Shown here: positions 956-63,292 of the stretch, piece by piece | How the letters are laid out: each line of letters begins with the position of its first letter | How positions within the stretch are numbered: the first letter of the stretch is position 1 | Assembly (NCBI GenBank): GCA_963921795.1 | Contig: OY997642.1 | Span: 58,574,927 to 58,638,926, forward strand | Direction: 5' to 3' | DNA length: 64,000 nt | DNA from: Nannobrachium achirus | Taxonomy: Eukaryota > Chordata > Actinopteri > Myctophiformes > Myctophidae | Position numbers and translations under genes: made by a program | The notes under the pieces: generated by a model | The model's database searches: none | Told to the model about the DNA's origin: nothing | The model's input: only the letters and a program-made list of their open reading frames with translations

Positions 956-1035
956 AAACACAATTAAACCGTTAATCGCAATTATTTGTGTGGCAATTAA
1001 TCGTCAAGTAAAATGTCATAATGGTGACAGCCCTA
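956..1035 (-). mobile_element. End fragment of the MITE family that forms TRIM intron 5
   Basis: Read on the minus strand, these roughly 80 bases match the start of the element at 62456 with only about six or seven differences, from TAGGGCTGTCAC onward. The match stops at the CCCTA end, so this copy independently confirms where that MITE begins. Confidence 0.8.
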
Positions 1036-3317: not shown

Positions 3318-4720
3318 CCAGCAGCACATAAAGTAATTAAAACCATGTTTTAAAAATCATGTTGTGCTACAGTAGACTGTGCTATACTGTCCATTAGCAC
3401 CTCTTCCACCAAAGAGATCACTGTTCTCTGGCAGAAATCTTGTATATCCATTTACTTTTTAAAATCTTTATCCCATGATTTTTGTTACCCATTTTTTCAC
3501 CCAGTGCCAATTGTGGGCCTATAAATCCTGCTACTCTCCCTCTGCCAACCTGGGGAGAGCAACAGACTGAGCGTGTGCTTCCTTCTATGCATGAGGAGTA
3601 CAAGCCACTTCTTTTCACCTGACAGGGGGGAGTTTCCCCAGTAGGACATAGCGCGTGGAAGGAACATGTTATTCCAGCCAGTTCCTTTGCCCACCATCAG
3701 GCGCCCCGGCTTGCCAGGGGGAGGCAGTATATAGAGACCAGGATTACTACATTTTTGTGAGGGTATCTACTCTAGGGGACACGGGCAGAACATGCAAACT
3801 CCACACAGAAATGCCCTTTTGCCAACCCCACCTAGGATATGGGCGCTGATGACGCGGAGGAGAGAACACGCCCACAACATCCCCAGTGGGAATCAAACGT
3901 CTAGCTGTGAGGCACATATTTTAACTTTTTAAGATTTTTTTTTTTCTATACATAAATGAATGGCCTTCTTTGTTGTACAAGAGGGTTACACGATACACAA
4001 AAGTAGTGAAAATAGCCGATCTACAAGCTTGTATCCTTTATTCTGGAATAGACACAAGTTCTGTTTTAGTAGCCTACAACGGTGAGGTTTTTGGGGTGGT
4101 GACACCAGCTCACCATGCAGCCTCTCACCGTCCGTACGTTAGAAATTCATGAGCTTCATGTCTTTCTCACGTGAAAGAAAAAAATGAGCACTGTCAACTG
4201 GCTGCTGTTATACAGATGCATACTTTTCAAGCAGACTGGTTGGTTCTTAACTCATGTTGTTTCAACTTTAAGGACTGCATTTCTCCTTGTGTGACACTCA
4301 ACACAGGATTTAAGAATCCCAGGGCTTAATTAGTACCACAACCAATCATTATTATAATATTGGTGGACGGTGGTATAAGAGCAGCAACAGCATTAATTAA
4401 TTCTTTTTCTAGTTGTTTTTATATCGCACTGACCTTTGGACACTGTATTAGGTTGTGTTAGTCGTTTTGAGTATTTTTGCTTGTGTTTGACAGGGTGAGA
4501 TACAGGGTTATACTACTGTACTATATTGATAGTTGTGCCTAAGGACACTTTATGTATATATATTATTATTCGTTCCCTTTCTTGACGTACTTTGCTCTTA
4601 CTGTACTCTGTTCTTGTTTGGTTTTTTTAATCTTTTTTCTTACTTCTCTGTAACTTTGTAAATAACCTTATACTGCGTGCTGCCTCTGGGAAACTGATTT
4701 TCTCCCCTGGGATAATAAAG
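3318..4720. other. Non-coding interval with weak repeat traces
   Basis: No gene seen. Around 3755-3925 there is a stretch resembling a common fish LINE/SINE remnant (ACATGCAAACTCCACACAGA). A half copy of the hairpin module lies at about 4003-4035. A LINE-like 3' end (GGGATAATAAAGGTATC) precedes the microsatellite at 4722. Confidence 0.4.
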
Positions 4721-9535: not shown

Positions 9536-11074
9536 TTATTGTGGAGTCATGAGACGAAGAAACCCAAAGTCACACACCTCAGCGGTGCTATCGTAGCCTA
9601 ACCAAAACCCAGCATAGAGGGTCTGGGTGAACGTGGTGTGGACTCTGTGGAGGAGAGTCATGGTGTCAGAGACACTGTACCAGGACAGAGTCCCTGCGCT
9701 GTGATCCAGGTACACTCCCACCCTGGAGGACACGCGACCTTGGATTTTAACATCAACGCCTCTGTGTCTGAAAACGTAACATCCATTACAACACAGCGAA
9801 GACCAAGATTTGTCGTTGTATCCAAACCTGCTCATGTCGTTGCTCGTGCCGTTTCTGCTGATGTCCTTATATGAGACCGCTATGTCGACGTGGTGCCCGC
9901 TCCACTCCACCTCCCAGTAGCAGCGTCCCGTCAGGGACTGGCTGCTAAGAACCTGATGGAATGCGGAGAATCTCTCCGGGTGGCGAGGATACGAGTGCGG
10001 TTTGTTCATCCACGTTACCTTCCTGTTCCGCTGAGACAGGGACAGGTATTCGTGCGCCGTGTTTGGATCCAGCGTGATTGGACACGAATACTGCAAGAAC
10101 TCAGCTCTGGTCTTGGGCTCCGGCAGTGCCGACAGCAAAACGTCAATTGTGTTCACTTTCTCCGAGACGTTTTCCCCTTCCTCTTTGAGAATCCCCTCCA
10201 GTTTATCCCTCATCCTGGACACGATCACGGGCACATCTTCAAAGTATCTCAGAGGACGCGCGTTGCTGCCGAGCGGGTGACGTGTGGATTCGCCGGTCCT
10301 GGAGAGGCAGGCGGTGGAAGGCAGAAAGTGGACGTGATCCTCTATGTTGGAGAGTTTCTCCTGCCTCCTTCTCAGGTCGGTGACCTCCTGCTCCACGCAC
10401 CTCCTAAGTTCCTCGGCGCGACTCACTTTGCGCTTCTGCTGGTCTCTGATCAGCTCCCGCACCTCGGACCGCCTTCTCTCAATGGAGCCGATGAGCTCGG
10501 TGAAGATGGTGTCGCTGTGGTCCACCGCTCTGTCAGCGCAGTGGTTGATGGACCCGACCTCCTGGTGAAGTACCCTCACGTCTTTCTCCCTCTCCTGGAT
10601 TCTCTGCTGGATGCAGATGTTTTCCTGGAGCTCATTGGAGGCTTTGACCAGCTTGTGGTTCTTGAAGGCAGGAGACTGATAGTGGGGCTCCAGGTGAGTG
10701 CCACAGTAAGAGACCAGACACTGAAGACAGGTCTTCACGGATTTCTGTTTTCTCCCGGTGCAGAAATCACAGGCCACGTCTGGGGGTCCAGCATAGCAGT
10801 GATCAGGAGAAGGAACTTGTAGCTCTGTCGTCTTCAAGCTCTCCACCACCTCAGCCAACATGTTGTTTTTGGTCAGAACAGGTCTTGGGTTGAACGTCTG
10901 TCTGCACTGTGGACAGCTGAATCTCCCTCTTTGATCATCCTGATCCCAGTATCCCTCAATACACCTACTGCAGTAGTTGTGTCCACAGGGAATGCTCACT
11001 GGATCCTTCAGTAGATCCAGACAGATAGAACAACAGAAATGTTCCTGGTCCAGTTGAACCCCTTGCTGTGCCAT
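9536..11074 (-). CDS. Intronless finTRIM/TRIM16-like E3 ubiquitin ligase, copy 1
   Basis: Predicted 512-residue cytoplasmic RING-type ubiquitin ligase of the fish TRIM expansion, a family tied to antiviral and stress responses. From the chosen start (MAQQ, shared by the two neighbouring copies; an ATG four codons upstream also exists) the order is: C3HC4 RING about residues 14-57 with [14 protein letters not shown] and CPQC; a B-box-like zinc finger about 102-145 (CDFC, CLQC, CGTH); a long coiled coil about 150-270 with RRRSEVREL; and a complete PRY-SPRY/B30.2 from LDPNT to CDFGFLRL. All of this is in one open frame with no intron, whereas the related gene at 53-63 kb has five. That suggests a retrocopy origin followed by tandem duplication. 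I know of no reason to call it dead. The exact orthologue is not identifiable from sequence alone. Confidence 0.93.
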   Translation of the reverse strand: MAQQGVQLDQEHFCCSICLDLLKDPVSIPCGHNYCSRCIEGYWDQDDQRGRFSCPQCRQTFNPRPVLTKNNMLAEVVESLKTTELQVPSPDHCYAGPPDVACDFCTGRKQKSVKTCLQCLVSYCGTHLEPHYQSPAFKNHKLVKASNELQENICIQQRIQEREKDVRVLHQEVGSINHCADRAVDHSDTIFTELIGSIERRRSEVRELIRDQQKRKVSRAEELRRCVEQEVTDLRRRQEKLSNIEDHVHFLPSTACLSRTGESTRHPLGSNARPLRYFEDVPVIVSRMRDKLEGILKEEGENVSEKVNTIDVLLSALPEPKTRAEFLQYSCPITLDPNTAHEYLSLSQRNRKVTWMNKPHSYPRHPERFSAFHQVLSSQSLTGRCYWEVEWSGHHVDIAVSYKDISRNGTSNDMSRFGYNDKSWSSLCCNGCYVFRHRGVDVKIQGRVSSRVGVYLDHSAGTLSWYSVSDTMTLLHRVHTTFTQTLYAGFWLGYDSTAEVCDFGFLRLMTPQ

Positions 11075-11176
11075 CTTACAGATCACTTTGTCTGATAATA
11101 AACCTTTAATAATTGAAACTTAGAAAAGTTCATTGAAATGTTATAGGCAGGCATAACTTATACTTAGTTTTTTGAT

Positions 11177-13719: not shown

Positions 13720-15219
13720 TCATCGCAACTCAACGGTGCTGTCATAACCCAACCAAAACCCGGCATAGACGGTCTGGGTGAACGTGGTCCGGACACTGTG
13801 GAGGAGGGTCATGGGGTCGGAGACGCTGTAGAAGGACAGAGTACCGGCGCTCTGATCCAGGTACACGGCCGCTCTGGAGGACACGCGGCCCGGGATTATA
13901 GTATTAACGTTTCTGTGGTTGAACACATAATATCCTTTACAACACCGCAAAGACCAGGACTTGTCGTTGTGTCCAAATCTGCTGTCGTTATTTACCGCCG
14001 TCCTGCTGATCTCTCTATATGAGAGCGCTATGTCGACGCTGAAGCCCCCCCACTCCACCTCCCAGTAGCAGCGTCCGGTCAGACCTTCCTTAGAAAGAAC
14101 CTGGTGAAACGTAATGAACCTCTCTGGGTGATGAGAATACGATTGTGGTTTGTTCATCCATGTTACCTTTTTGTTCTCTTTAGACAGAGACAGGTGCTGA
14201 TGTACTGTGTTTGGATCCAGCGTGATCGGACACGAATATTGTAAGAACTCAGCTCTGGTCTTGGGTTCAGCCGTTTCTGTCAGTAAAACGGCCACTCTGT
14301 TCACTGTCTCCGAGATGTTTGTCCCTTCCTCTTTGAGAATGACCTCTAGTTTGTCCCTCATCTTTGATACAAAGACGCTCACGTTCTCAAAGTATTTCGC
14401 ATCACTGCTGACTTTGTGCGCAGAATCGTTGATCTTCGAGAAGGACCTTAAACTGTGTAAAAACTTGGTCTGTTCCTCGGTGTACGAGAGCTTCTCCAAC
14501 TCGGCGAGTCTCTTCTTCAGGTCGGTGACCTCCTGCTCCATTTGCTTCCTCTGTTCTTCTGCACAACTCACTTCACGTTTCTGCTGGTCTCGGATAAGCT
14601 CCCTCACCCCAGATCGTCTTCGCTCGATGGAAGAGCTGAGCTCAGTAAAGACGGCCTCACTGTCCTTCACTGCTCTGTCGGCGCAGCGATTTATGGAATC
14701 GACCTCCTCGCGAAGCACCTTCACGTCTGTCTCTCTCTCCTGGATTGACTGCACGATGAAGATGTTTTCCTGGATCTCTTTGGATGCCGTGACCAGCTTG
14801 TGGTTCTTAAAAGCAGGAGACTGATAGTGAGGCCGGAGGTGAGCGTCGCAGTAAGAGACCAGGCACTGAAGACACGTCTTCACAGCTTTCTCTTTTCTCC
14901 CAGTGCAGAAATCACAGGCCACGTCTCCAGGTCCAGCATTGCAGTGATCCAAAGGACCAACTTGGAGCCCTGTCTTTTTCAGGCTCTCCACCACCTCATC
15001 CAGTACATTATTCGTCTTCAGAACAGGTCTTGAGCTGAATGTCTGGCAGCACTGCGGACAGCTAAAAATCATTTTTAGATCCTCCCTATTCCAGTGTTTC
15101 TCAATGCACTTACGGCAGTAGTTGTGACCACAAGGAACAGTCACTGGATCCTTCAGGAGATCTAGACAGATGGAACAAGAGAAATGCTCCTGGTCCAGTT
15201 CTATTGCTTGCTGCGCCAT
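13720..15219 (-). CDS. Intronless finTRIM/TRIM16-like E3 ubiquitin ligase, copy 2
   Basis: Predicted 499-residue paralogue of the gene at 9536-11074, same strand and architecture: RING ([18 protein letters not shown]), B-box-like finger (CDFC, CLQC, CDAH), coiled coil with ERRRSGVREL, then PRY-SPRY starting LDPNT. The start is set at the conserved MAQQ; an in-frame ATG eight codons upstream would add MPHSPLQN. Odd point: the frame stops right after GYDSTVELR, where copy 1 continues with about 13 more residues including CDFGFLRL. The last B30.2 strand is therefore lost or altered, although related bases (GACTTTGG) remain just downstream. This may weaken the B30.2 fold. Otherwise intact and, like copy 1, without introns. 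Confidence 0.9.
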   Translation of the reverse strand: MAQQAIELDQEHFSCSICLDLLKDPVTVPCGHNYCRKCIEKHWNREDLKMIFSCPQCCQTFSSRPVLKTNNVLDEVVESLKKTGLQVGPLDHCNAGPGDVACDFCTGRKEKAVKTCLQCLVSYCDAHLRPHYQSPAFKNHKLVTASKEIQENIFIVQSIQERETDVKVLREEVDSINRCADRAVKDSEAVFTELSSSIERRRSGVRELIRDQQKREVSCAEEQRKQMEQEVTDLKKRLAELEKLSYTEEQTKFLHSLRSFSKINDSAHKVSSDAKYFENVSVFVSKMRDKLEVILKEEGTNISETVNRVAVLLTETAEPKTRAEFLQYSCPITLDPNTVHQHLSLSKENKKVTWMNKPQSYSHHPERFITFHQVLSKEGLTGRCYWEVEWGGFSVDIALSYREISRTAVNNDSRFGHNDKSWSLRCCKGYYVFNHRNVNTIIPGRVSSRAAVYLDQSAGTLSFYSVSDPMTLLHSVRTTFTQTVYAGFWLGYDSTVELR

Positions 15220-15316
15220 ATTCTGCAGCGGACTGTGTGGCAAAATGTGTTACTGAACAACTCTCATCAAAACACAAATGTTCATTACATGCTCAATGAC
15301 ATTTTGTTTATTTGAA

Positions 15317-16915: not shown

Positions 16916-18454
<1,539 letters not shown>

Positions 18455-53306: not shown

Positions 53307-56300
53307 ATGGCGGTGGCCCGCAGTGAGAAGCTGCCCCAGAGGCAGCAGGTGCTGCTGGACGAGGATAAGTTCCAGTGCTCCATCTGTCTGGACCTGATGA
53401 AGTTCCCGGTGTCGGTGCCCTGCGGACACAACTACTGCAGCCGCTGCATCGAGAGCTACTGGGACAAGAACGAGCAGACGCCGCGGGTCCGATGCCCGCA
53501 GTGCAGGCAGACCTTCGACCCCAGGCCCGAGCTCAAGAAGAACCTGATGCTGAACGAGGTGGTGGCCATACTCAAGAAGACCGCACTAGAAGGTAACTAA
53601 TCCGGTTGTTTAATTTCTGCCCTTTTGTTTGACATTTAGACACTTCCCTATACATAAATTAGTACTGTGTTCTATCCGTCTGTCTTTCAATGTTGTATGA
53701 GACAGACAGGCTACTAAAGTGGTTCCTGTGTAAACAAGGCAAGCCGAAAAGCTTACTTGTACCGGTGATTTGTGCTGTCACGAAACTGTACCTTTTCCTA
53801 TTGCAAACTTCGAATACATTCTTCAATCAATTAACCCAGTGGTCTAAACGGCAACAGTCCGCCATTCCGAAACACCGCTATTCCGAAGCAGGGTTAGGGT
53901 TAGGTTTAGGGTTAGGGTTAGGGTTAGGGGTAGGGTTAGGGGTAGGGTTAGGGTTAGTTAGGGTTAGGGTAAGGGTTAGGGTTAGGGGTAGGGTTAGGGT
54001 TAGAAGTCAACGTTCGGAATAGCGGTGTTTCGGAATGGCGGGGTGTAACCGGTGTAAACTGTAAAGCAGTGGTTCCCAAGGGACCGTGTAAACTGTAAAG
54101 CAGTGGTTCCCAAGGGACCGTACCTATGTTCCCCATCAATGTTCCCCAGGTTCTATCTGTTCCCCATTTACCACCCTAACCTAACCTTAACTCTAACCCT
54201 AACCTCAGTAAAACTATGCCCAAACCTAACCTTAACCCTAACCTCAGGAAAACTAACGCTGGTGAATGCTAACCTGGTGCATTTTAACCTGTGGGGAACA
54301 TAGAATCTGGGGAACAGAGTGGGCCCCGTTCCCAAACCTTTTAGCCTGTGACCCAAAAGAGAGTGTAACTCACAACACGTGAGCTTGTAGATCTGCTTAA
54401 AAGGGATATTCCACTTAAAAAGAAAAACGTTTGGTCATTGTATCGTGTACTACTCAGATTTTTGTGAGAGTTTTCAATTTGCTTGATTCAATATTTAGAT
54501 ATTTGATATTCATTCACATTTAGACACTCCACAAGAGGGCCCATTCTAGTCCACTTTAAATATGTCCAAACATGAAAGGTTCGTTCAAATTTTCGGGGGA
54601 TTTTTGAAAACTATATATTTTTAGAAACTTCAGAGTATAACAAATCAGAAAATCCATGATTCCATTTGCAAATCCGTAGGGGAATTTTTGGCTGGTGCTG
54701 AAAGTTTGTCTCATTCATTTCACTTATTATACTATAAAGGAAAAAATACCCCCCAAAACATCTGCTTTAAGTATCATGTGAGGGGTGAAACTAGGGGTTT
54801 TTAATGATTCTGAATCCAATGCAAGCATTTGTTTTGCATGAAAAACATCCCTTGGGCTAATGCAGTATTCAGTGAACGTGAACGAAATGATTCGCTCAGT
54901 GAAACAGGGTTCCCACGGTCATGAAATTCCTGGAAATATTTTGAAATTAGAAAAATATTTTTCCAGTACTGGAAAAGTTTTGGAATTGAAGGGTCCTGGA
55001 AGGTCCTGGAAAAAAATAACTATGCATTGTCTTTGGTTATACCTCTGAAATGACAAATTAAACATTGGCCAAATTGTCAAATATTAGAGGCAGAAATTGT
55101 GAAAATAGCAATTCTAAAAGTAGCATGTAGACTGGCTATTTTCACAATAAAACCGTGTTATACAAAATTCCTCAACTCTCGTCAAATATGATTATTTTGG
55201 GGGGTCACAGCCTGAAAAGGTTGAGAAGAGGTTTAGGGTTGGCCAATCAGGGTTGTATGCTTGGGGCACGTGGTTTATGTAGGCTTGAGGATAGAGGCTG
55301 GCAACGCCAGGCAATTTGGGCATTGCACATAGGAGTACGCGACTCGTTATTGAGCTGAATTATTGTTATATAGTCCTGGAAATCGGGTTAAATATTCTGG
55401 AAAAGTTTTGGAAATTAATTGGTAAAGATGTGTGGGAACCCTGGTGAAATGAACGGGATTGCCCATCACTAGTGGAGGGAACAAGGGGGTCGTCACAGTC
55501 CTTTTGATATTCATTGTATTTCAATGTCTTGACTCATATGCATGCATTTAACACATCTGGTGCCAACCCCGAGTTTCCCGAGTTTGGGCCGTTTTTGAAA
55601 AAAAATAAATAATTTTTTTCAATTTATTTTTTTCAAAAACATTTTTTGGACCTCCAGAAATGTATTAGGCATGATCGCGATCGCGAAATTGCATGTTTAA
55701 CCCCCATACCAACCCATTCTTTCAAACATGGCAGCCATGTTTGTTTACATCTGAAGAAAACATAATGGCCCATAAATCATGAATGCCTGAACGGATTTCC
55801 AAGCGGATTTTTTTGTTTGAAAGCTGTGAACAGCATCTACACACGTGGTGCATCATCTAGGCATGGGCGTGCACTTTTTACACAATTGCACAATTCTATG
55901 GTAACCATGGCAACACGAGACATTGAAGAGAAAAAATCATTGCAACATAAGTGTTAAGAAAGACTGTGACATTACTGTGGCCCGGACAAGTGACTTTTGT
56001 GCCCGAACAAGTGAATGGGAAATGTACTTGTCAAGTGCCTCAAAAATGTTAACGTCAAGCCCTGCAGTATTGATACTTTTTACTTAAGTCTCTAACATCT
56101 GAGTACTTTTTCCACCAACTCGTAGGTATCATCCCCGAGCGCTGCTACGCGGGTCCCAAGGACGTGGGCTGTGACGTCTGCGACGGGAGGAAACAGAAGG
56201 CCGTGCTGACCTGCCTCCAGTGCCTGGTCTCGTACTGCGAGCCCCACGTCCAGCCCCACCACCTGTCCCCCGCCTTCAAGAACCACAAGCTGGTCAAGGT

Positions 56301-59300
56301 CTCCACCCATCTCCAGGAGAACCTGGGCGTCACGGAGAGGATCCAACAGAGGGTGGAGGAGGGGAAGCTGCTTCACCTGGAGGTGAGGAGATGAGATGCA
56401 CTACACTAGCCTTATTTAGGCCTAGAATTATTGAATGCTTTAACCAGTGAAAAATAGCAGATATACAAGCTCACAGCGCGGCACCGAGTGCCGCGCTGCG
56501 AGCTTGTAGATCTGCTATTTTTGAAAAAGTCGTGAAAATGTGTGCAAATCTTTGAATATATGTATTTTCAAAGCGAACGTTTGTAACTCAAATTTTGCTT
56601 CTGGGTGGTCCCTGGAACTAGATATTTTGAGATGGGGGGTCCGTGGCCAAATAAATATCATTTTGGGGGTCCTTCACATGAAAAGGTTTGAGAACCACTG
56701 ACATAGTAGTTTCTCAAGAACAGACTAACTGAGCTCCAGTTAAGTGAAAAGGACCTTTTCTTTGACGATGGCTGGCCAGATTGTTGACATACAAACATCG
56801 GTTTTTCAAAAAATCTTAGAAGGATTCAAAAGACACTTATGTAATCGGGTCAAAAATCGAATTTTCACGATTTTTCAAAAATAGCAGATCTAGCGCTGTG
56901 AGCTTGTATATCTGCTATTTTTCAATAGTTAAAGCATAAAATATTGCGTCATAATGTGTTCAGGCCTAAATGGGTTAAGACCCTCGTAGCATGTATGACG
57001 CATTACGTCGCTACGAGAGAGTCTTAGTGAGTTATCAGACAGTCTTGCTGGTCTTGCTGGATGGTCGGCAAAACTGTGCTAGTGGCTCTACACACGCACA
57101 CACATGCAAAATATAGACACCGGAGTGGTTCTGCCAACAGTTAGCGACGATGCAGGAAGCCTTGCACAATGTATTAGTCTGTTGTTTTAAATAAAAAATA
57201 GTTCTTTACCAAGTGTGTGTTGGAGCGTCACTGCTTTTCCACTTTTAATGTCGGTTAAACATAGCCGCACATATCACGTGACATTGATCCCTTCCCCTCA
57301 TCGCTCATACAAGGACATGACATGTGTAGACAGAAGAATGCACAGTAATGCCTCCCAAGCCACCAACGAGGCGCTGTTGCAACCCACATTGTGGCGAACG
57401 AGGAAAAGCAGTGACACTTGGTAAAAACTATTTTTATTCAAAACAACAGACTAATACAGGGGTCTTCAATGTTTTCAGCCCAAGGACCCCTTAGCTAAGA
57501 GAGAGATGAAGCAGGGGCCCCCAAAACCTTTTCATGGATTCCATATACAGTAGTTTCATCGTTTGACAGCACAATCATCAGTGTATTTTGAATTCATGTC
57601 AATGTGCGTTTTCAGATATTTAACCTCTTGAACCGTCAATACTTAATAATCTTGACATTTCACTCTGTACTTGGTCTGTTCTTTTTCCCCTCTACACCAA
57701 TCCTCTTTGCAGAAAATAGCCGATCTAGCTTGTAAATCGGCTATTTTTGGCAAGAGTTCTCAGAATATGGACACTAGGGTTCACGTGGTTAATATAACAT
57801 TTTTTTCTATCAAAAAAGATTTGGAGGACCCCCTGTATTAACTCTGAAGACCCCCTAGAGGTCCCGGACCCCCTGTTGAAGACCCCTGGACTAATACATT
57901 GTGCAAGGCTTTCTGCATTGTCGCTAACAGTTGGCAGAAGCACTCTGGTGTCCTATATTTTGCGTATTTTGTGTGCATGTGTAGAGCCACTAGGACAGTT
58001 TTGCCGACCGTCCAGCCAGACTGTCTGATAACTCACTAAGACTCTCTTGTAGCTACGTAATACGTCAAACTGTACATGCTACAAGGGTCTTAATCTAAGG
58101 CTAGCACTACACCAGTGGTTCTGAACCTGTGGGTCGGGACCCCCAGGGCCCAGGGGCGTTGTGAGCATGTAGATCTGCTATTTTCACAATAGAACCGTGT
58201 TATACAAAATGTCCACAGTTAAAATATGATTATTTTGGGATTTGCGCCCTGAAAAGGTTGAGAACCACTGCACTACACCACTAAGATACCCCATTAAGTT
58301 CACCCCCAAAATAACTTTTTTTTCTATTGATTACTCATGCCATGGAGATTTGAGTTCAATAATTATTTTCTTTTTTGTATTTGTCTCTTTCCTAAGCCAA
58401 TAATTTGATTACAATAAATTTACCCCAATTGATTCCGGATCGTCACTTTTTAGTTGAACTTGAACCAGTGAACTGTACTGTCATGAAACTGTACCTTTTT
58501 CCTATGCAAACTTCTAATAAAATTCTTCAATCAATCAATCAATCAGACGGAGACCATCAACGACTCTGCGGACAAAGCGGCGAGGAACAGCGACACCGCC
58601 TTCGCCGAGCTCATCTCCACCATCGAGAGGAGACGGTCTCAGGTGAGCACACATAGACATAAAGGGGGCTTGAGCCCCTGCCCTTTTATCCTTCTGTAAA
58701 AAGTGCCCTTTCCAGACCATAAATGCATTTTTTGTTATGGTGAAAGAAATGCCCCCTCCTTTCCATGCCATACCTGAAGGCAGCATTCAAGAGAATTGCC
58801 TTGTCCAAACTCTCCTGAACTTGAATGCAGCATCTTAGGTTGAGTGTCATCATTTCGACATAACATTTGTTCGACGTCCCATTTTTTTCCCGACACGGGT
58901 GAATGTTAACCTGGTGAAATGCTAACCTGCCGACGCTGGTGAATGCTAACCTGGTGAATGTTAACCACTATGCCTAAAACTAGCACAAACCTCAGTAAAA
59001 CTATGCCTAAACTTAACCCTAAAGGTGTCTCCACACCAAACAGCCTACAGGAGACTACTTCTGACTGTACACAGACTGCAAAGAACTGCAAAAAACTAAG
59101 CACTTTTATTTTTTCAGACGACGCCGACTCTAGTTACTGTATGGCAGTGGTGCCAGGTCTGCTCGTTATAAGCAACGTTGATCCTGTTTTCCTATAATGT
59201 TGCTAGTTGTGGGTTGCTTTTGTTTGGGCTTGTTTCTGAATTGTAGTTGCTTATTTGGCCTTGCTTTCAACATTATTTTATAAAATAACTAATGTAATAG

Positions 59301-62300
59301 AGCTCAGAGGTGAAACTGGTCGCTGCTTTTGGGCTTATTTTCATAGACCTGGTCGCTTATTTCACTCACAGAATCTGGCAACCATACCCGGAGGCACTGT
59401 GTGTTCTCCGTGCAGAGGAGAAGGGGGAAAAAAGAACAACAACAACACGGGGAGCTGCTGCACTATTTACTAGCTTTGCTTTGGATCAGATTGGAATAGG
59501 AACTGAGAGTTGAGATTGAGAATATGGTATTTAGTAAAAAATATGCGACGGGCAAATGTCTCTGGCTTATTTTGGCTTGGTTTTGCAACAGTAGCAAACT
59601 ATTCTACAACTCCCTCAATCTTACCGACGGCCAGGGGCGACTGAACAAAACTGAGCAAGTCCAGTTTTCCAGTTTTCGGTCGATAACGTTCCCGACCCGC
59701 TGCCGAAAACCTGACGATAAGCTCCCGTTCGGCAACCGACGCTATCCGCCGCCTTCCGCCGCCGATTCGCGGCCGAATCGGTTTGGTTAAAAGTGCCCTT
59801 AACCCTTAGTCGAAATGATGGGACGTCGAAATAGCGAGGACTGAAATAATTGCCCTCTGTGTGTTGTTACGCCACATCTCCAGTATTGACTTGATAATGC
59901 TTAGTTCAGTGTTGTATCAACTAGGGATGTCCCGATACCACTTTTTTGCTGACCAAGTACGAGTAAAATTTGAGTACTTGCCGATACCGAAGTTAGGTTT
60001 CTGTACTTAACTCATTTTGTGCTCCTGAAATTAACGGAGTAAAATGTCCAGCGTGCCTCTCGCTTTCTCCATAAGCGGCCAGTCTCTTATTTTGAAGGCC
60101 AGAAGTCGATTGCGTAAACACTTCCGGTTTGACGTCATCACGTCATTCACCGGAATCGCTCGTCGTCAACATGCCGTTGTGTAATGGCGGATCGTTGCTT
60201 TTCAACATGTGTTTTATTAGCGAGAATCTACTGCCATCCTCCCCTTTGAAAGTGTTGTTTGGAGATAATGGACATTGAAGATGAGATTCCCCGTCTGCCT
60301 CAATGTTATGGGATTACTATTTTGTGCTCGTGGATCCGTGATGATGATGAATCGGCGAGGGCGATTGTGCCAGGACCTTCCGCGCAGGGGAACAGGGTAC
60401 AGCTACAGGGTAGAACCGCCGTTACAGTAATATAGTACTTTTCACGAGTATACTCGGGATCGGCACCATATGATACTCGAGTATTTTTCACGAGTATTCT
60501 CGGGATTGGCTACAAATGAGTTAAGTGCTTAAATAGTGTGTGGCGCTCCAAAATAAAATGCTTTAAATAATGATGTTGTCATGCCTAGAGTGAGAGAAGG
60601 TGAAAACACTGTTCATTAGTTGAACTAACATACAAAACTGTCTTAGGACTTTTGATATGTTGTTACCAACATATCTATGAAACAAAATGGTATCGGGCGC
60701 TGCCTTGAGCAATATCGGACGAGTACGAGTAGAGCAAAATAGGCCGGTATCGGGGCGAGTAGCGATTCTGGAATCGGTATCTATCGGGACATCCCTAGTC
60801 TCAACTATCAAGCACCGAAAATAGTCTGCTATTTTTTGTATGGTAACTATATTCTATAAGTGTCTTTTGAATCCTTCTAAGACTTTTTGAAAAACACATG
60901 TTTCTATGTCAGCAATCTGGCCAGCCATCGTCAAAGAAAAGGTCCTTTTCACTTAACTGGAGCTCAGTTAGTCTGTTCTTGAGAGACTTCTATGTCAGTG
61001 GTGCTCAAACCTTTTCATGTGAAGGACCCCCAAAATGATATGTATTTGGCCATGGACCCCCATCTCAAAATATTTAGTTCCAGGGACCACCCAGAAGCAA
61101 AATTTGAGTTACAAACGTACGCTTTAAAAATACATATATCCAAAGATTTGCACACATTTTCCCGACTTTATCAAAAATAGCAGATCTACAAGCTCGCAGC
61201 GCGGCACTCGGTGCCGCGCTGTGAGCTTGTAGATCTGCTATTTTTCACTGGTTAAAGCATTCAATAATTCTAGGCCTAAATGGGTTATAAGTAAAGAATG
61301 TGAGTACTTTTTCCCACTACCGCAGGTGAGGGAGCTGATCAGGGAGCAGCAGAGGCTGGAGGCGAATCGCGCAGAGCAGCAGAAGAAGCGGGTGGAGGCG
61401 GCGGCGGTCGAGCTGCGGCGGGGCCACGCCGAGCTGGAGCAGCTGCACCGCGCGGACGCGCTGCACGTCAAGCACAGCTACAACTCCCTCAACAGGATCC
61501 AGGTGACCGCGCACCTGCGGACCCGCGCCGACCGGCCCCTCAGGCACTTCGACGACGTGGCCGTCGCCGTGCAGAGGCTGCGGGGCAAGATGGAGGCCGC
61601 CCTCGAAGGTATAGGGATGTTTAACGATGAATCTGTAATCGATGAATTGCCGTTAAAGGACAACTTTGTTGTTTTACAACGAGGGTTCATATTTTAGATG
61701 GTCATTAGAGAGAAGAAAAGATGATTGTCAGAATGTTTTCATTTACTTTCTTTCTGTCGTTTTAGTGATTTTTAGAATTTTGATTTGCATGCATGCCCCC
61801 AGGTCGGGGGCAATCTTTCATGGGCAGATGTGACTTATGGGGGCTGGTGTAAATAGTAACAAAGAGTGTCGGCTTGTGCCGGCTTATTGTGTCTAAAAAT
61901 ACATATTTAGCCACTTGTACGCATGCCCCCACACACTGAAATCGAAATAATAAAATCGCTAAAACAACAGAAAGCAGTAAATGAAAACATTTTAACACTC
62001 TCTAATTACAATCTAAAATATGAACCCCTTTTTGTAAAAAAAAACTCCAGCGTCCAGTGTCCAGCTGAAGCTCGTTGACGCGTGTGAAGGGTATATACAT
62101 AGTGGCAATTGTGTTTCTGCACTCATTTTCGTTTTCGGGACAAGAACTTTCCATTCAGTCTTATCAATTAATCGGTTAATCAATCGATAAGGTTATCAAC
62201 CATCACTTAATGAATTAGTCGATAATTTTGCATCCCTTACTCGAAGGGGAAGCGGCGAAGATCCACGCGGCGGTGAGGAGGCCGGACGTCCTGCTGTCGA

Positions 62301-63292
62301 CGCTGGAGCCCAGGACGCGAGCGGAGTTCGTGAAGTACGGCATCAACCTCTGGCTGGATCCCAACACGCACCACCAGCACCTGGTCATGGCCCTGGGCAA
62401 CCTGAGCGTGGAGAACACCAACGTGGTGAACCCCCACCCGCACCACCCGGACAGGTAGGGCTGTCACGATTATGACATTTTACTTGACGATTAATTTTCA
62501 CTCAAATAATTGCGATTAACGATTTAATTGTGTTTTTTGTAGTTGACAATTACATTTCTGTTTGGCTTTTAGGCTTTGAAGTTGCACGTGGCAGATATGA
62601 CACATGACCTAAATATACAAAGAAATTACTGACATATTTGACAACTTTATACTTAAAAAAAGAACATTGATAGTGGAAATAGCCGATCTACAAGCTCACA
62701 ACGCGTCGCATCGCGACGCGTTGTGAGCTTGTTGATCTGCTATTTCCACTATTTTTTTAAAAATAATATATGAAAACTTTGCAACATGGAAACGATTATG
62801 ACGATTATGAAAAATAATCGCGATTATGTCAAATAATCGCGATTAGACGATGATGTAATAACTGTGACGGCCCTACGGAACAGGTTCTCTGAGTGCTGGC
62901 AGTGCCTGGCCACGGAGCCGCTGACCGGCCGCCACTACTGGGAGGTGCAGTGGGGCGGCGATTACGTGGACGTGGCGGTGGCGTACCCGGACATCGCCCG
63001 GAACGGCGACATGGAGCGCCGGTTCGGGTTGAACGCCAAGACGTGGTGTCTGCAGTGCTGGCACGAAGGCTGCTACTTCAGACACAAGGAGAGCGGCCAC
63101 GAGATCAACATGCCCGTGAGCCAGCGGGTGGGCGTGTACCTGGATCACAACGCCGGCGTCCTGTGCTGGTTCAGCATCACGGACACCATGACCCTCCTCA
63201 AGAGGGTGGAGACCACCTTCACGCGGCCCCTCCTCCCTGGGTTCTGGTGCTCCGATCACTCCAGCATGACCATGGTTCATGACGTCAAGTAG
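53307..63292 (+). CDS. Six-exon finTRIM/TRIM16-like E3 ubiquitin ligase
   Basis: Exons, all with GT-AG borders and consistent phase: 53307-53592 (RING: CSICLDLM, CGHNYC, CPQC), 56126-56382 (B-box-like: CDVC, CLQC, CEPH; coiled-coil start), 58547-58642 (96 bases, the conserved TRIM coiled-coil exon, ending ERRRSQ), 61326-61608 (coiled coil, VRELIREQQR), 62247-62454 (PRY, RTRAEFVKYG, LDPNT) and 62884-63292 (SPRY, HYWEVQWGG to GFWCSDHS). The joined frame is 512 codons plus stop, the same length as the intronless copy at 9536-11074, and aligns to it across every junction without added or lost residues. Function is inferred as a ubiquitin ligase with a B30.2 recognition domain. Introns 2 and 3 flank the classic 96-base exon and are probably ancestral. 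Introns 4 and 5 look newly made from MITEs. The SPRY end lacks the CDFGFL-type strand. Confidence 0.9.
53860..54040. mobile_element. MITE with telomere-like core, in TRIM intron 1
   Basis: Perfect 28-base inverted repeats (53860-53887 and 54013-54040, containing CGCCATTCCGAAACACCGC) enclose about 113 bases of (GGGTTA)n-type repeat. Confidence 0.85.
54140..54316. mobile_element. Second telomere-word MITE, in TRIM intron 1
   Basis: TGTTCCCCAGGTTCTAT at the left and its near inverse at the right enclose CCTAACCTTAACCCTAACC words and GGTGAATGCTAACCTGG. Confidence 0.7.
55096..55147. repeat. Decayed hairpin module
   Basis: ATTGTGAAAATAGC is mirrored by GCTATTTTCACAAT. The inner stem is broken. 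Confidence 0.75.
55985..56120. mobile_element. hAT ends at the 3' side of TRIM intron 1
   Basis: A CAGGGCTTGACGTTAAC-type end (inverted) abuts CATCTGAGTACTTTTTCCACC, the inverse of a common fish hAT terminus. The latter stops a few bases before the acceptor of exon 2. Confidence 0.6.
56416..56840 (+). repeat. 425-bp inverted repeat, arm A (TRIM intron 2)
   Basis: From TTTAGGCCTAGAATTATTGA to AAAAGACACTTAT this matches the reverse complement of 60856-61280 with few differences and equal length. It contains a hairpin (56450-56522) and a hAT end (GGTTTGAGAACCACTG). Confidence 0.88.
56450..56522. repeat. Hairpin module
   Basis: AAAAATAGCAGATATACAAG and its inverse around a GCGCGGCAC/GTGCCGCGC stem. 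Confidence 0.9.
56877..56922. repeat. Hairpin module, short form
   Basis: AAAAATAGCAGAT is mirrored by ATCTGCTATTTTT-type sequence with part of the left inner arm missing. Confidence 0.75.
57713..57747. repeat. Hairpin module, minimal form
   Basis: AAAATAGCCGATC then TAGCTTGTA then AATCGGCTATTTT. It is inside a hAT-like GGACCCC-rich element at about 57450-57895. Confidence 0.8.
58295..58440. mobile_element. Left half of the TTAA foldback MITE
   Basis: AAGTTCACCCCCAAAATAAC through CAATTGATTCCGGAT matches the left arm of 1607-1920 up to its palindrome centre. Confidence 0.75.
58464..58546 (+). mobile_element. LINE 3' end providing the acceptor region of TRIM intron 2
   Basis: GAACTGTACTGTCATGAAAC through TATGCAAACTTCTAATAAAA and an (AATC)n tail matches the inverse of the LINE 3' end at 39417-39535. 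The tail ends CAATCAATCAG, directly at exon 3. Confidence 0.8.
58643..58850. mobile_element. ACGTGC-end MITE starting at the donor of TRIM intron 3
   Basis: GTGAGCACACATAGACATAA matches GGCACGTGCACACATAGAC of 45470 after a small difference. The match continues to CAGCATCTTAGGTTG. Later pieces of the same element reappear at about 59845-59921 and 60806-60830, so it was split by later insertions. Confidence 0.7.
58900..59030. repeat. GGTGAATGCTAACC core repeat
   Basis: Four variants of GGTGAATG(C/T)TAACC and CAGTAAAACTATGCC, the core seen at 31535-31740 and 54140-54316. It is enclosed by CATCATTTCGAC at 58848 and GTCGAAATGATGGGACGTCG near 59808. Confidence 0.55.
59922..60797. mobile_element. 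hAT-type element, 876 bp, in TRIM intron 3
   Basis: Ends TAGGGATGTCCCGATACC and the inverse of CGGGACATCCCTA, with GTATCAAC / GTCTCAAC as an 8-base duplication with one difference. No transposase frame. Confidence 0.85.
60856..61280 (-). repeat. 425-bp inverted repeat, arm B (TRIM intron 3)
   Basis: Reverse complement of 56416-56840. It contains the hAT end CAGTGGTGCTCAAACC and a hairpin at 61173-61245. Exon 3 lies between the two arms. Confidence 0.88.
61173..61245. repeat. Hairpin module
   Basis: AAAAATAGCAGATCTACAAG and its inverse around GCGCGGCACTCGGTGCCGCGC. Confidence 0.92.
61610..62239. mobile_element. MITE that forms TRIM intron 4
   Basis: Ends TATAGGGATG and the inverse of CATCCCTTA. 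Exact 8-base duplication CTCGAAGG on both sides (61602-61609 and 62240-62247). A smaller foldback (about 61675-62040; AGGGTTCATATTTTAGAT and its inverse) is nested inside. The intron (61609-62246) is this element plus one copy of the duplication. Confidence 0.85.
62456..62875. mobile_element. hAT-type MITE that forms TRIM intron 5
   Basis: Ends TAGGGCTGTCACG and the inverse of GTGACGGCCCTA. Flanked by CGGACAGG (62448-62455) and CGGAACAGG (62876-62884), a duplication with one inserted A. A hairpin lies at 62671-62752. A second copy of the same family end is at 956-1035. The intron (62455-62883) is this element plus one copy of the duplication. Confidence 0.92.
62671..62752. repeat. Hairpin module inside TRIM intron 5
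   Basis: TAGTGGAAATAGCCGATC and CTACAAGCTCACAACGCGTC are mirrored, with two differences, on the other side of GCATCGC. Confidence 0.92.

Follow-up and report, generated by a model that had tools for sequence, protein, structure and literature searches.

In the fish Nannobrachium achirus, introns 4 and 5 of a TRIM gene would be MITE insertions whose splice sites derive from the target-site duplications, and one such MITE family would act as an introner in four unrelated genes; we put the probability of this reading at roughly 0.86. The insertions, their duplications, the empty sites in paralogues and the intact reading frames are plain in the DNA itself, and the elements are likely spliced from the mRNA, by the spliceosome. 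A vertebrate thereby seems to be gaining introns from transposons.

The gene, here called trimW, lies on the forward strand of the window, a stretch of 64,000 nucleotides from a genome of 1.66 Gb. Its six coding exons (53307-63292) join into an intact protein of 512 aa, in which Pfam recognises RING, B-box, coiled coil, PRY (343-389) and SPRY (393-507). This is the finTRIM-type architecture, and it is by domain content rather than by phylogeny that we class trimW as a finTRIM-type gene. The exons are as follows.

53307..53592, + strand: exon 1, RING (joined frame, Pfam)
56126..56382, + strand: exon 2, B-box (joined frame, Pfam)
58547..58642, + strand: exon 3, 96 nt (joined frame)
61326..61608, + strand: exon 4, coiled coil (sequence, joined frame)
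62247..62454, + strand: exon 5, linker and PRY (joined frame, Pfam)
62884..63292, + strand: exon 6, SPRY and stop (joined frame, Pfam)

Intron 5 lies inside the PRY match, close to the PRY/SPRY border, and consists of these features.

62448..62455, + strand: left target-site duplication, CGGACAGG (sequence)
62455..62883, + strand: intron 5, phase 2 after codon 376 (sequence, joined frame, Pfam)
62456..62875, + strand: MITE of 420 bp with ends TAGGGCTGTCAC...GTGACGGCCCTA (copy alignments)
62876..62884, + strand: right target-site duplication, CGGAACAGG, with one extra A inserted (sequence)

A first-pass annotation, made from the sequence alone, had read this intron as a 420-base element between the two duplications, and the copies of the family bear this out. 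The intron holds a full MITE copy: most of the 39 other full-length matches listed span 62456-62875 to within a few bases, and 26 of 27 other copies that were fetched, the best-scoring ones, align over the full 1-420. In 23 of these 27 copies at least 7 of the 8 bases of the duplications agree (a shift of up to 6 allowed), the inverted ends of the intron-5 element are 24 nt long and 83% complementary, and intron 5 differs from the consensus of the 27 copies at 17 of 417 bases, plus 4 indels. The 8-bp duplication, the short terminal inverted repeats and the fixed ends are those of a MITE, the TAGGG end presumably fits the hAT end rule, and we classify the element as a hAT-type MITE. In a search with the forward start, the exact 22-base 5' start of the family was found at 3470 places in the genome, 89 of which (2.6%) are preceded by AGG. 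The end of a further copy, already pointed out in the first-pass annotation, is recognisable by eye in reversed orientation near the beginning of the window.

956..1035, - strand: another copy of the intron-5 family, end only (by eye)

Intron 4 is organised differently. It had been described as a single 630-base element within an exact flanking duplication; the duplication stands, but the intron comprises two elements, an outer hAT-like element and a MITE nested within it.

61602..61609, + strand: left target-site duplication, CTCGAAGG (sequence)
61609..62246, + strand: intron 4, phase 1 after codon 307 (sequence, joined frame)
61610..61652, + strand: outer hAT-like element, left part (duplication, inverted end)
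61653..62043, strand not assigned: nested multicopy MITE of ~390 bp (match limits)
62044..62239, + strand: outer element, right part (copy alignments)
62240..62247, + strand: right target-site duplication, CTCGAAGG, an exact repeat (sequence)

The nested MITE, whose borders were set where the matches most often begin and end (query positions 54 and 443/444), occurs in at least 39 other places among the matches listed. The outer element is 74-82% identical to 39 listed copies. On its right side 26 of the 39 listed alignments share one end point, which leaves 2 bases before the right duplication. None of the 39 listed copies aligns to its left end, which is placed solely by the flanking duplication together with the inverted pair AGGGATG/CATCCCT. 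The probability that two fixed places carry an exact 8-mer repeat by chance is ~1.5e-5.

The predicted splice of intron 4 falls after 61608 and before 62247, and that of intron 5 after 62454 and before 62884. In both introns the predicted donor is formed by the last G of the left duplication and the T that begins the element, and the right duplication contains the acceptor AG, as had been proposed; the GT-AG borders so placed keep the frame. Also as proposed, removal of both introns restores codons that align free of gaps to an intronless paralogue at 9.5-11 kb, and this extends to a second one at 13.7-15.2 kb and to an intron-bearing paralogue outside the window, trimX.

9536..11119, - strand: intronless TRIM paralogue, both sites uninterrupted (alignment)
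13720..15249, - strand: second intronless TRIM paralogue, both sites uninterrupted (alignment)

The closest intron-bearing paralogue of trimW, trimX (L029/L015) lies on the same contig ~1.2 Mb off, with its start codon near C5:59862985, and has an intact frame of 515 aa with three introns, one at the position of trimW intron 3, the only position common to both genes, and two elsewhere. At the intron 5 site the target CACCCGGACAGGTTCTC is single and unduplicated in trimX. At least 59 listed genomic matches, trimX among them, are stop-free, paralogous and span both intron sites. Intronless finTRIMs can be retrocopies, according to the part of PMC2657112 available, and the argument from paralogues alone is therefore weaker than first thought. 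The main weight of the case would be carried by the flush duplications and by trimX, which has introns elsewhere and none at these sites. The third intron of trimX itself begins with TAGG and has CCTCCAGGT on both flanks, which fits the rule of AGG-ending duplications. Judged by the ends of its family, the element in this intron would be without its right tip. All three T-starting elements recognised within the trimW and trimX frames have AGG-ending duplications (P = 1.7e-5 at the 2.6% baseline, if independent), and none of the five remaining introns of trimW and trimX showed a comparably clean duplication beside a T-starting element.

Several other TRIM paralogues were inspected. One (L014) was not used, since its similarity fails beyond aa 334. 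Another (L013, C15:44.08 Mb) has an intron after KKT-G, ~3 codons upstream of trimW intron 1, and two more (L011 and L012), compared by eye, both lack one and the same coiled-coil stretch of ~35 aa at about the place of trimW exon 3. The window also holds, at 16916-18454 on the - strand, one intact frame of ~510 aa in which the RING and B-box start of a TRIM is fused in frame to what we take to be a full-length PRMT1 methyltransferase; it looks like a chimeric retrogene.

The first-pass annotation had suggested a search for the MITE families at exon borders, and this was run for the intron-5 family as a scan of copies whose start is preceded by AGG. We read 58 of the 89 such copies. For 30 of them both flanks were fetched, and the right end was located in 24 of these; the other 28 were read from the left flank, 4 of them later from the right flank as well. 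Four of the 58 interrupt a coding frame, namely those in the TRIM gene, a CALHM gene, a BAG6-like gene and the locus L068, the last judged by frame only, so that the arrangement seen in trimW recurs in three further genes. One family is thus found in several unrelated genes, and uninterrupted paralogues of the TRIM, CALHM and BAG6-like genes exist within this genome. The calcium homeostasis modulator (CALHM) gene (L073) holds the family copy and, upstream, another element (CAGTGGTGGAAAG...TTTTCCACCACTG) with the duplication ACCAAGGT/TCCAAGGT. With both elements removed, the Pfam domain PF14798 (Ca_hom_mod) is unbroken (3.5e-57), and a paralogue that is 70% identical is open across both element sites. 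The predicted spliced product at the second site is 6 nt longer than the paralogue, and restoration there would be in frame, perhaps not exact. In the exon at L109/L114, which we take to be BAG6-like and for which Pfam gave no match, the duplication is TTCACAGG, the removal is exact and the junction is free of gaps against C2:35703305, the only other locus among the matches listed (59% identical). The unnamed gene at L068 has an exact duplication, TTCATAGG, and a frame that stays open across and is bordered by AG and GT; more than one frame is open there and Pfam gave no match, so its inclusion is a judgement from frame alone.

Some further copies were set aside. In two (L107 and L110) the right flank was, by eye, not coding, and in a CDCP1-like copy (L071) the element lies at or near an existing exon end and was not counted as a new intron. 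Nor was the copy in a MED22-like gene (L120/L127, C12:27.5 Mb), where the element likewise lies at an existing exon end; the Pfam match of this exon to Med22 is 22.6 bits, below the cut-off of 26. Here the MITE landed exactly on the exon donor, and its first T supplied the T of a new one; the original donor survives in the right duplication, with intron and then the next exon behind it. What follows the right duplication would set the two situations apart: intron sequence in the MED22-like gene, coding sequence in the four frame cases.

As a control, 25 non-AGG copies (of 27 chosen by similarity) were read, and none of the 25 was seen to interrupt a coding exon. These were the best-scoring copies rather than random ones, and inspection was mostly by eye, with Pfam run on frames at 4 of the 27 loci, where the one match (PTB) lay wholly on one side of the junction; one copy (L057 = L064) belongs to both the AGG and the similarity sets. 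The difference between 4 of 58 and 0 of 25 is not significant (P ~0.23). A test against the coding fraction of the genome was dropped as weak, the probability of at least 4 of 50 at 2-3% coding being 0.02-0.06.

We propose the following mechanism. The targets of the hAT-type MITEs would be AGG-ending sites within unbroken coding exons. The left duplication, ending in AG/G, together with the element's first T would then provide a donor (AG/GTAGGG or AG/GTATAG), and the right duplication, likewise ending in AG/G, an acceptor. Excision by the spliceosome would take out the element plus one of the two duplicates and leave the mRNA unchanged. In intron 4, a second MITE would later have landed within the intron and enlarged it. 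When 75 GTs in the coding sequence are scored with a donor matrix, their 90th percentile is -0.17. On this scale the predicted donors of intron 5 and of the CALHM, BAG6-like and L068 copies reach 3.35-4.82, whereas intron 4 has a weak predicted donor (AAG/GTATAG), with 0.48 against 8.59 for the consensus.

The trimW copy might instead be dead or dying, with the MITEs as ordinary disrupting insertions that fit the frame by luck. The gene is a multicopy immune gene with many paralogues, and the weak intron-4 donor would also agree with decay. trimW and trimX differ with dN 0.30 and dS 0.54, which suggests only moderate constraint and counts against the explanation that we prefer. Yet all six exons are intact next to an intron-5 element with 4% divergence and an outer intron-4 element only 74-82% identical to its 39 listed copies. 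The 1539 nt of coding sequence contain zero stops and zero frameshifts; at the divergence of the intron-5 element, the chance of no stop is 0.14 by simulation, and ~6.5 indels would be expected in the exons, given 42 indels per 402 substitutions in the intron-5 family. Luck would moreover have to account for the AGG at each duplication and for the same arrangement in CALHM and in the BAG6-like gene, the latter with its one other locus among the matches listed. We therefore regard a decaying copy as improbable.

Still less probable is that both introns are old and that the MITEs landed inside them or on an old donor. Such landing does occur, as in the MED22-like gene, and in multi-exon finTRIMs an intron lies close to the intron-4 site, as far as can be gauged from the lengths given in the available part of PMC2657112; by this rough measure, intron 4 lies ~4 codons from the expected canonical intron, in the same phase. 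Against this, coding sequence follows directly upon the right duplication in introns 4 and 5 with no remnant of an intron, and the duplication is itself exon sequence. The duplicated sequence of intron 5 is single in trimX, and B30.2 is reported as one exon in the same part of PMC2657112. We give least credence of all to the elements leaving the RNA through pairing of their inverted ends in place of the spliceosome. Such removal is known as SOS splicing, a term that none of the papers listed in our literature search contained, and the inverted ends of intron 5 could lend themselves to it, but GT-AG stands at exactly the places that restore the frame, and pairing of inverted ends should not need AGG in the target. 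The account that best fits these comparisons remains that hAT-like elements inserted into uninterrupted exons and drew splice sites from the duplications, as the first-pass annotation had inferred.

Introns 1-3 of trimW were also considered as possible transposon introns. Intron 3 (58643-61325) has CAGGTGA(G) at its start and its end, but an interspersed repeat begins at its left border; the CAGGTGAG there also resembles the donor consensus. Intron 1 contains a degenerate repeat only. Similar CAATCAATC tails, apparently those of a retroelement, end at the acceptor in trimW intron 2 (58546) and in trimX introns 1 and 2 (L029: 6493 and 7310). Exon 3 of trimW is exactly 96 nt long with phase 0 at both sides, and zebrafish ftr genes have a 96-bp exon (PMC2657112, in the part available), so that introns 2 and 3 may be ancestral. 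A broader picture, to which we give even odds, is that this fish harbours working introner families, hAT MITEs with the intron-5 family foremost, that have made many introns genome-wide, and that retro-derived TRIMs have been re-filled almost wholly by transposons, possibly including trimW introns 1-3.

Transposon-made introns are an established kind, to which the fish case would belong. For instance, a maize Ds element is said to have made an intron (reportedly Giroux, 1994); Ds belongs to the hAT superfamily, as the present elements would, but that case is single and from a plant. Intron gains have also reportedly been seen in vertebrate serpins (PMC2746811). As far as the available text of PMC9860276 goes, a survey of 3325 genomes identified 27,563 introner introns in 175 of them, and animals and land plants yielded only two groups, both animals, with no vertebrate gain pattern described. 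Like the elements studied here, those introners for the most part fit DNA transposition, many families have duplications and inverted ends, some take their splice sites wholly or partly from the duplication and mRNA length is usually unchanged; unlike them, the host is here a fish. Closer still are introns 3 and 5 of notothenioid slc26a2, described in the accessible part of PMC12357937, which are of transposon-like sequence in a teleost, with gt-ag within direct and inverted repeats, and of which the new intron 3 was enlarged by a nested second element, as in our intron 4. That report concerns one gene, with 4-nt repeats and ends tgt...aca, whereas we find 8-nt duplications, ends TAGGG...CCCTA and several genes reached by one family. 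In the AGGT model (PMC3443670, as far as available) a duplicated AGGT gives donor and acceptor, which are likewise derived from the duplication; in our cases the element end contributes the donor T, so that a target with AGG is enough. The 2012 table of that model, in the same portion, has Oryza, Drosophila, Oikopleura and Zea, and no vertebrate. Intron gains in GPCR genes of ray-finned fish occurred at proto-splice sites, with repetitive elements in some, and the part of PMC3151243 available does not derive them from any defined element flanked by duplications. Vertebrates are said to gain introns rarely, teleosts showing a higher turnover (PMC12357937, in part); PMC3257199 cites the earlier view that it is 'extremely rare' and argues against it, and 342 gains have been reported in human genes by a study that, from its available text, was not designed for transposon-made introns (PMC12124190). 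In the literature that we searched, mostly outside subscription journals, we found no element family that had supplied introns to several genes of a vertebrate, and a MITE family doing so within a single vertebrate would, against these papers, be new.

Most new vertebrate introns are of unexplained origin, and a MITE family found as introns at low divergence bears on this question. Because unduplicated sites are still present in paralogues of the same genome, the question becomes testable, as to which insertions are spliced, what target is needed and how the introns spread. The rule suggested by these cases is that a T-starting element which duplicates an AGG-ending target would be born with a matched donor and acceptor.
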